Source of the DNA: Planctomycetota bacterium
Lineage (GTDB): Bacteria; Planctomycetota; SZUA-567; JAFGGJ01
DNA: 64,000 nucleotides
Direction: 5' to 3'
Assembly (NCBI GenBank): GCA_016930595.1
Contig: JAFGGJ010000088.1
Span: 23,132 to 87,131 of the forward strand
Positions within the stretch are counted from its first letter, which is position 1, and each line of letters opens with the position of its first letter. This document shows positions 17,751 through 59,682 of the stretch, piece by piece. The position numbers were made by a program, and so were the translations under genes. The notes below the pieces were generated by a model, which saw only the letters and a program-made list of their open reading frames with translations, did not search any database and was not told the DNA's origin.

Positions 17751-18872
17751 ATGGGTATTATCTCCAGCCTGGTACGAGGTTGGGAAAAGCGCCGCCTGGA
17801 GAAGATCGAAAAGAACTCTCCACGTCCTCCGGCGGAAGTCTTTATCCGCCTCTACGAGATTTATCACTCTGAAGGCGAAGTCAACGCGGCCAGCCGTGTC
17901 GCCAAGCGCGGCATGCGGCTCTATCCCCATAATCCCGATATCGGCAAGGCCTCCAGGGATATGGACAGGATGGTCCGTGAGATCGAGAAGGAGCGCCTCC
18001 GCCAGAAGATCGAATCCTACCCTAACCCCATACTCTATGCCAGGCTCGCCGAGCTTTACAAGACCGACGGCGAAATCGGCGCTTCGGTCAAGGTCTGTGA
18101 AGCCGGTATAAGGGCCTTCCCCGACTACGGCGGCACCTACCTGCTTCTCGGCCAGATATGTTTCGACCAGGAAGATTTTGACGGGGCTCTCAGTTACCTG
18201 GAAAAGGCCGCTGAACTCGATCGCTACAACTACATGGCGCTCAGGCTCCTTGCCGACACCTACATGAAGCAGGGACGTTACATGGACGCCGTCCAGAACC
18301 TTGACGCCATCCTCTACTTCGCCCCCGGTGACGAACAGGTGCTCGATGCGCTCAAGGCCGCCAAGACCGCCGCCGGCATCCAGGAAGAAGTTCCGCCCGA
18401 AGCCGCTCCCGCCGAGGCCGTACCCGCGCCGGCGCCGACTACCAAGGTCAAGCCCCGCGAGCCCGCCAAAGGCGCCAGTACCGTCGCACGCCAGATGAAG
18501 ATGAAGGCCGCCGCCAAGAAGCAGGTGGCCTACACGGACGCCATCGAAATCCTGAAGACCATCGAGGGTGTGCACGGTGCGCTGCTGGTTGACGCTTTCG
18601 GCCTTGTCATTGCCAGCTACCTGTCGCAGGACGTGGACGAGGAACTCGCCGGCGCCATGATCACCAACATCTACAGGTCCACTGCCAGGAGTGCCCAGCA
18701 GATGGGCCTGGGCAGTTTTGAAGACGGTGTCATCGAAGGTGAAAGCGGCAACATCCACCTGATTGCCATTCAGGACATGATCCTCGCCGTTTTCGCCGCC
18801 GCGACCATCAAGATGGGCCTGCTCGAAAAGGCCATCCGTGACTTTGCCAACGCTGTTCTGGAGGTAGGCTGA
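17751..18872 (+). CDS. TPR-repeat protein with C-terminal roadblock/LC7 domain
   Basis: TPR helices (AGTYLLLGQICFDQEDFDGALSYLEKAAELD) then IEGVHGALLVDAFGLVIASYLSQDVDEELAGAMITNIYRS. Confidence 0.85.
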   Translation: MGIISSLVRGWEKRRLEKIEKNSPRPPAEVFIRLYEIYHSEGEVNAASRVAKRGMRLYPHNPDIGKASRDMDRMVREIEKERLRQKIESYPNPILYARLAELYKTDGEIGASVKVCEAGIRAFPDYGGTYLLLGQICFDQEDFDGALSYLEKAAELDRYNYMALRLLADTYMKQGRYMDAVQNLDAILYFAPGDEQVLDALKAAKTAAGIQEEVPPEAAPAEAVPAPAPTTKVKPREPAKGASTVARQMKMKAAAKKQVAYTDAIEILKTIEGVHGALLVDAFGLVIASYLSQDVDEELAGAMITNIYRSTARSAQQMGLGSFEDGVIEGESGNIHLIAIQDMILAVFAAATIKMGLLEKAIRDFANAVLEVG

Positions 18873-19231
18873 TGGCCCACGGTATGGGTGATATTCTCGA
18901 CCGCCTGAACCGCATCGAAGGCGTCAAGGGCTCGATGGTCGTCGGGCGCGACGGCATCGTTGTCGCCAGCGATTTCGCCGATTTCATCAATGAAGATGCC
19001 GTGGCGGCGGTTTCCAGCGCCATTCTCTCCAGCCTCGACGGCGCCCTCAAGCGCCTCGAAATGGGCGGCTTCAAACGCTTCGTCATCACCGGCTCTGACG
19101 CCAAGATCGTGCTGATGAAGGGCCGCAATACCCTCGTGCTGGTCCTTCTTCGCAAGGATATCAACCTCGGCTTCGTGGGCGTCGAAATACGCGAAGCCGT
19201 AGCCGAGATCGACGAGCGCACACACCTCTGA
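18872..19231 (+). CDS. Roadblock/LC7 domain protein
   Basis: LNRIEGVKGSMVVGRDGIVVASDFADFINEDAVAAVSSAILSSLDGALKRL; TGATG overlap with the upstream gene. Confidence 0.88.
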   Translation: MAHGMGDILDRLNRIEGVKGSMVVGRDGIVVASDFADFINEDAVAAVSSAILSSLDGALKRLEMGGFKRFVITGSDAKIVLMKGRNTLVLVLLRKDINLGFVGVEIREAVAEIDERTHL

Positions 19232-22427: not shown

Positions 22428-22440
22428 CGCCGTTAAAAAG

Positions 22441-22470
22441 AAAAAGGACCGGCATCCACCGGTCCTTTTT
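22441..22470. terminator. Bidirectional intrinsic terminator between convergent genes
   Basis: aaaaaggaccgg-catcca-ccggtccttttt. Confidence 0.9.
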
Positions 22471-22493
22471 CTGGCTCGTTGGCCGAAACCCGC

Positions 22494-22709
22494 CTACAGG
22501 TCAGCCGCCCTTACCGTGCTGCGCTTATTGGCCTTGGTGCGTGCCACGGCTTTCTTGATCGCATCTACGACGACCTGGTTGACGGCGTCCGGTACATCGC
22601 CGGATGTCTTGCATCCCAGCGAGTTGATCAGCTTCTTGATCCGGCTGGTCAACACCAGAGGTTCGTCTGCCTTCTTGGCGGGCTTCTTGGCCTTTTTCTT
22701 TTTTGCCAC
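22494..22709 (-). CDS. Putative bacterial histone-fold protein with N-terminal lysine-rich tail
   Basis: GTG start after AGGAG; MAKKKKAKKPAKKADEPLVLTSRIKKLINSLGCKTSGDVPDAVNQVVVDAIKKAVARTKANKRSTVRAADL; helix-loop-helix size and C-terminal R(K/S)TV..xDL histone signature. Confidence 0.75.
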   Translation of the reverse strand: MAKKKKAKKPAKKADEPLVLTSRIKKLINSLGCKTSGDVPDAVNQVVVDAIKKAVARTKANKRSTVRAADL

Positions 22710-22793: not shown

Positions 22794-22898
22794 CTACTTT
22801 TTCTTCTTCGCGGCCTTTTTCTTCGCCGGCTTCTTCGCGGCCTTTTTCTTCGCCGGCTTCTTCGCTGCCTTCTTCTTTGCCACTTTCTTCTTTGCCAT
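22794..22898 (-). CDS. 34-aa Lys/Ala/Pro-rich peptide (histone H1-like tail)
   Basis: ATG GCA AAG ... [48 protein letters not shown] upstream; consensus promoter at 22958-22985; below the ORF-track length cut-off. Confidence 0.75.
22804..22857 (-). repeat. Perfect 27-bp x2 tandem repeat inside the Lys-rich gene
   Basis: ttcttcgcggcctttttcttcgccggc repeated at 22804-22830 and 22831-22857 (encodes PAKKKAAKK). Confidence 0.95.
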
Positions 22899-22957: not shown

Positions 22958-22985
22958 ATAATAGTCGGGGAAGGTCATGTGTCAA
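22958..22985 (-). promoter_or_regulatory. Strong sigma70-like promoter for the Lys-rich peptide / histone-fold genes
   Basis: TTGACA-N16-TATTAT on the minus strand. Confidence 0.7.
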
Positions 22986-59292: not shown

Positions 59293-59586
59293 CTAATCCA
59301 ACTTGGCGGCTTCCCGACACACACGTTCTTCCATCATTTTCCCGGGCTTGAACGTTACTACTTTTTTCGGCGGCACCATGACTTCTTCCCCTGTCCTGGG
59401 GTTACGCGCTTTGCGTCCACGCCTGGTTTTCACTTCAAATATCCCAAAGTTCCTCAATTCTATCCGGCCGTCGTCCACCAGTGCGTCCACGATGCCGTCA
59501 AGGGTCATCTGGGCGACCTTTTTTACGTCTACCTGCCTCAACCCCGTAGCCTTGGCAATGCTGACCACTATATCGTTCTTCGTCAC
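59293..59586 (-). CDS. HU/IHF family DNA-binding protein
   Basis: VDALVDDGRIELRNFGIFEVKTRRGRKARNPRTGEEVMVPPKKVVTFKPGK. Confidence 0.96.
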   Translation of the reverse strand: MTKNDIVVSIAKATGLRQVDVKKVAQMTLDGIVDALVDDGRIELRNFGIFEVKTRRGRKARNPRTGEEVMVPPKKVVTFKPGKMMEERVCREAAKLD

Positions 59587-59654: not shown

Positions 59655-59682
59655 ATAATACGACCACACAAGCACTTGTCAA
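59655..59682 (-). promoter_or_regulatory. Sigma70-like promoter for the HU-family gene
   Basis: TTGACA-N16-TATTAT on the minus strand. Confidence 0.7.

Follow-up and report, generated by a model that had tools for sequence, protein, structure and literature searches.

In the window, the whole 64-kb stretch of planctomycete DNA that we analyzed, a gene for a 71-residue bacterial histone and a shorter lysine-rich ORF upstream of it lie between a promoter and a terminator, and together they form an apparent two-gene unit. The features of this unit, along with the gene for the nucleoid protein HU and its promoter, are as follows:

22439..22472, minus strand: intrinsic terminator hairpin (-24.4 kcal/mol, z -5.2) after the histone gene, with a U run downstream of it
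22494..22709, minus strand: gene for a face-to-face (FtF)-type alpha3 histone, 71 aa, GTG start (from translation, homology and model)
22659..22709, minus strand: lysine-rich N-terminal tail of the histone, residues 1-17 (low-confidence and non-helical in the model)
22794..22898, minus strand: 34-aa Lys/Ala/Pro ORF with an AAGGAGA ribosome-binding site, upstream of the histone gene
22958..22985, minus strand: near-consensus promoter TTGACA-16-TATTAT (11 of 12), before the 34-aa ORF
59293-59586, minus strand: HU gene, preceded by TTGACA-16-TATTAT
59655-59682, minus strand: HU-gene promoter TTGACA-16-TATTAT, with hexamers and spacing identical to those of the histone unit

Translation of the minus strand from 22709 to 22494 gives MAKKKKAKKPAKKADEPLVLTSRIKKLINSLGCKTSGDVPDAVNQVVVDAIKKAVARTKANKRSTVRAADL. 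The GTG codon follows GGAGA at a distance of 5 nt, and the 3.4-Mb assembly contains no second copy of the gene (its next match has an E-value of 0.57). Residues 1-17 form a tail of Lys/Ala/Pro type with 8 lysines and a net charge of +6, while the remaining ~54 residues make up the body, the fold spanning about 18-71. The histone gene is flanked by a uroporphyrinogen-decarboxylase-like gene and by an ORF without assignment. Elsewhere in the window (18872-19231, plus strand) there is a gene for a protein with a Roadblock/LC7 domain, a domain most familiar from small-GTPase regulators.

None of the Pfam and NCBIfam models calls the 71-aa protein, and therefore the histone would probably be missed by automatic annotation. 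Weak, sub-threshold matches to DUF2540, UPF0253 and BRCT in these collections were set aside as chance, as were matches to ribosomal protein S2 among PDB sequences (E about 0.3). A phmmer search against PDB sequences, on the other hand, identified HLp of Leptospira perolatii as the best solved relative (9qt0, 38.6 bits, E 8.7e-9), with HBb (Bd0055) of Bdellovibrio bacteriovorus scoring below it (8cmp, 25 bits, E 1.9e-4). These matches, together with an alignment of homologs in which R57, N61, R63, T65 and D70 are invariant across about 25-26 relatives, place the ORF beyond chance: the protein is a bacterial histone. The RxTxxxxD motif of alpha3 histones is present as R63 S T65 V R A A D70, and the longer R...N.R.T....D motif is kept in 108 of the 110 distinct histones that we collected. 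Four family histones with the latter motif (L046, L047, L048 and L049) were found on contigs of a viral collection.

The AlphaFold2 model, computed for the monomer from a 10-row alignment of this histone and sequences from other loci, has a mean pLDDT of 80, with about 87-90 per ten-residue block over residues 21-70 and 56-64 in the tail. Its helices cover residues 21-30, 39-60 and 68-70, and the chain ends one residue past the alpha3 turn. This is the three-helix fold of alpha3 (truncated) histones, having a long alpha2 and an alpha3 shortened to 3-4 residues, and not that of nucleosomal histones (archaeal HMf and eukaryotic), in which alpha3 is about 10 residues long and alpha2 is longer. 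The top Foldseek match among 350,542 chains was HLp (9qt0; rmsd 0.9 Å over 56 columns, target-normalized TM 0.93), followed by HBb and then by the archaeal FtF histone HTkC (PDB 9F2C), which shares the fold at an rmsd of 0.9 Å but comes from another domain of life and is only 24% identical. All of the first nine matches were alpha3 histone chains, either bacterial or archaeal. The initial annotation, made from the letters and a list of ORFs, had proposed a GTG-start ORF of 71 codons encoding a Lys/Ala/Pro tail of ~15 residues and a histone-fold body of ~56. It named no strand; the reading frame agrees with the minus-strand translation and with the homologs, the tail and the body need only slight adjustment (to 17 and ~54 residues), and the histone fold emerges from both types of search: the first PDB-sequence matches are HLp and HBb rather than some unrelated family, and the model superposes on HLp.

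The same annotation likened the protein to both archaeal and Bdellovibrio-type histones. The likeness to the histone fold stands, whereas the protein is not of the Bd0055 type but nearer to the tetrameric FtF histone HLp. FtF histones form homotetramers that two dimer-dimer interfaces close into a torus. Assembly of the tetramer involves positions R48 and N52 of the FtF profile, both lacking in bacterial dimer histones (PMC11390915); these residues correspond to R49 and N53 of HLp (PMC11390915, PMC12701072), whose tetramer residues are R49, N53 and R55 and whose clamp residue is D62 (PMC12701072). In the present histone R57, N61 and R63 are equivalent to R49, N53 and R55 of HLp, and D70 is equivalent to D62, completing the R-D clamp. 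HBb, in contrast, shares the short-alpha3 fold and the RxTxxxxD motif, but it is a dimer carrying S and D at the positions equivalent to R57 and N61. Thus, the presence of R57, N61 and R63, along with D70, points to an FtF-type alpha3 histone and not to a dimer histone of the Bdellovibrio type; the protein was modeled as a monomer, and its tetrameric state is predicted from these residues. The conserved DNA-binding lysine K16 of the FtF profile (K17 of HLp) is matched by K25. The other DNA-contact residues of HLp are largely retained, with T27, G29 and T57 corresponding to T35, G37 and T65, while K21 is replaced by N29 and T56 by S64. Overall, the histone shares with HLp (PDB 9QT0-9QT2; PMC12701072) the fold, the R/N/R tetramer residues, the R-D clamp and 41% identity over 56 structurally aligned residues. 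It differs in having a longer and more lysine-rich tail and in belonging to another phylum than L. perolatii, and the SMC/MAP/DUF350 neighborhood reported for hlp was not seen beside its gene. The sequence is divergent, with a branch length of 0.9 in a tree of 112 histones that has too few columns to place it firmly.

The assembly carries no 16S rRNA gene, and ribosomal signatures of related genomes place it most likely in Planctomycetota: the planctomycete probe EUB338-II has exact matches in two genomes of the same class and PLA46 in one of the same phylum, and Phycisphaerae are among the named relatives. Family histones are widespread in Planctomycetota, the family profile matching 166 of the 395 sampled genomes of the phylum. 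Within the class such a histone was found in 8 of 29 genomes, this one included; since many genomes of the class do without it, it appears to be dispensable at that scale. Bacterial FtF histones with positively charged N-terminal tails have already been published for Planctomycetota (Schwab et al. 2024, PMC11390915), and the present protein shares with them the phylum, the histone class and the positive tail, with no difference in kind found. Tails were measured in 101 planctomycete sequences, taken mainly from the better matches, with starts assigned by a simple rule. Their median length is 13 residues; 39 of them reach at least 17 residues, 52 have a net charge of +4 or more and 25 one of zero or less. 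The lengths range from no tail at all to 54 residues (L067). Very long tails of Lys/Thr/Ala repeats, making up to half of the protein, occur in L067, L102, L128 and L036. The arrangement of a tail followed by a histone fold does recall eukaryotic histones, as was initially remarked, but the likeness is one of layout only and the layout is common in the phylum. A lysine-tailed histone is thus an already described type, and its identification here is correct but ordinary.

Taken together, we put at roughly 85% the probability that the ORF encodes a planctomycete alpha3 histone of the FtF type, which forms a tetramer that wraps DNA with assistance from the tail and serves as an abundant chromosome organizer beside HU. 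The folded part would most likely form a handshake dimer, and contacts made by R57, N61 and R63 would hold two such dimers together as a closed tetramer. DNA would then be bound non-specifically around the tetramer, as it is by HLp, which wraps about 60 bp (PMC12701072). The tail, a presumably disordered polycation, would most likely provide extra non-specific phosphate contacts and more compaction, and the histone would act alongside HU as an abundant chromosome-organizing protein. In the whole window there are only two promoter-like sites with at least 11 of 12 matching positions (0.1 expected by shuffling), one in front of the histone unit and the other in front of the HU gene. Judging from sequence, such matching promoters are consistent with strong expression of both nucleoid proteins.

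Other explanations appear far less probable. HBb is 39% identical over the body, and its structures fit the model at rmsd of 1.0-1.1 Å, as might be expected if the protein were a dimer histone that bends or coats DNA without forming a tetramer. We regard this as improbable, because HBb scores below HLp (25 versus 38.6 bits) and because both R57 and N61 are present, whereas bacterial dimer histones have no counterparts of these residues (R48/N52 of the FtF profile; PMC11390915). There is a similarly small chance that the protein, while having a histone fold, is a low-abundance and more specific regulator instead of a general chromatin protein. HU, encoded in three copies in the genome, may do the general packing, and no histone was found in 21 of the 29 genomes of the class; yet the near-consensus promoter, paralleled in the window only by that of HU, and the polycationic tail both speak against such a role. 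As for a chance or spurious frame that encodes no histone at all, the silence of Pfam and NCBIfam is outweighed by the homology, which refutes it, and by the fold matches, making this possibility negligible.

Returning to the FtF-type histone and its surroundings, the only unusual detail at the locus is the small gene, nearly all Lys/Ala, that precedes it. The 34-aa ORF is composed solely of Met, Lys, Ala, Pro and Val, runs in the same direction as the histone gene and is separated from it by 84 nt, in which no RNA structure was detected (z 0.03). Its product is a candidate polycationic DNA-binding peptide, and the ORF may be translated into a partner of the histone, correspond to a tail split off from it, or serve as a regulatory leader. 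Such a lysine-rich ORF was found at none of the 109 other histone loci, some viewed only as far as the contig ends, and no counterpart turned up in 150 related genomes, although such a search is weak, being poorly suited to a low-complexity query. Likewise, we found no literature report of an H1-like partner of bacterial histones, nor one on planctomycete tails. The idea that this ORF, sharing an apparent transcript with the histone, supplies a detached tail or a partner resembling linker histone H1 is speculative, and we consider it rather unlikely. Were it true, the locus would be a two-component histone operon, in which the core histone wraps DNA and a separate polycation neutralizes linker DNA. 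As far as the literature consulted shows, a gene for a 34-aa polycation beside a histone gene would, if translated, be an unreported arrangement.

The histone itself adds one more lysine-tailed representative to the FtF histones of a phylum that is rich in them but provides none of the characterized examples in the literature consulted. Since their tails range from none to 54 residues, planctomycetes offer a place to test the function of histone tails outside eukaryotes.
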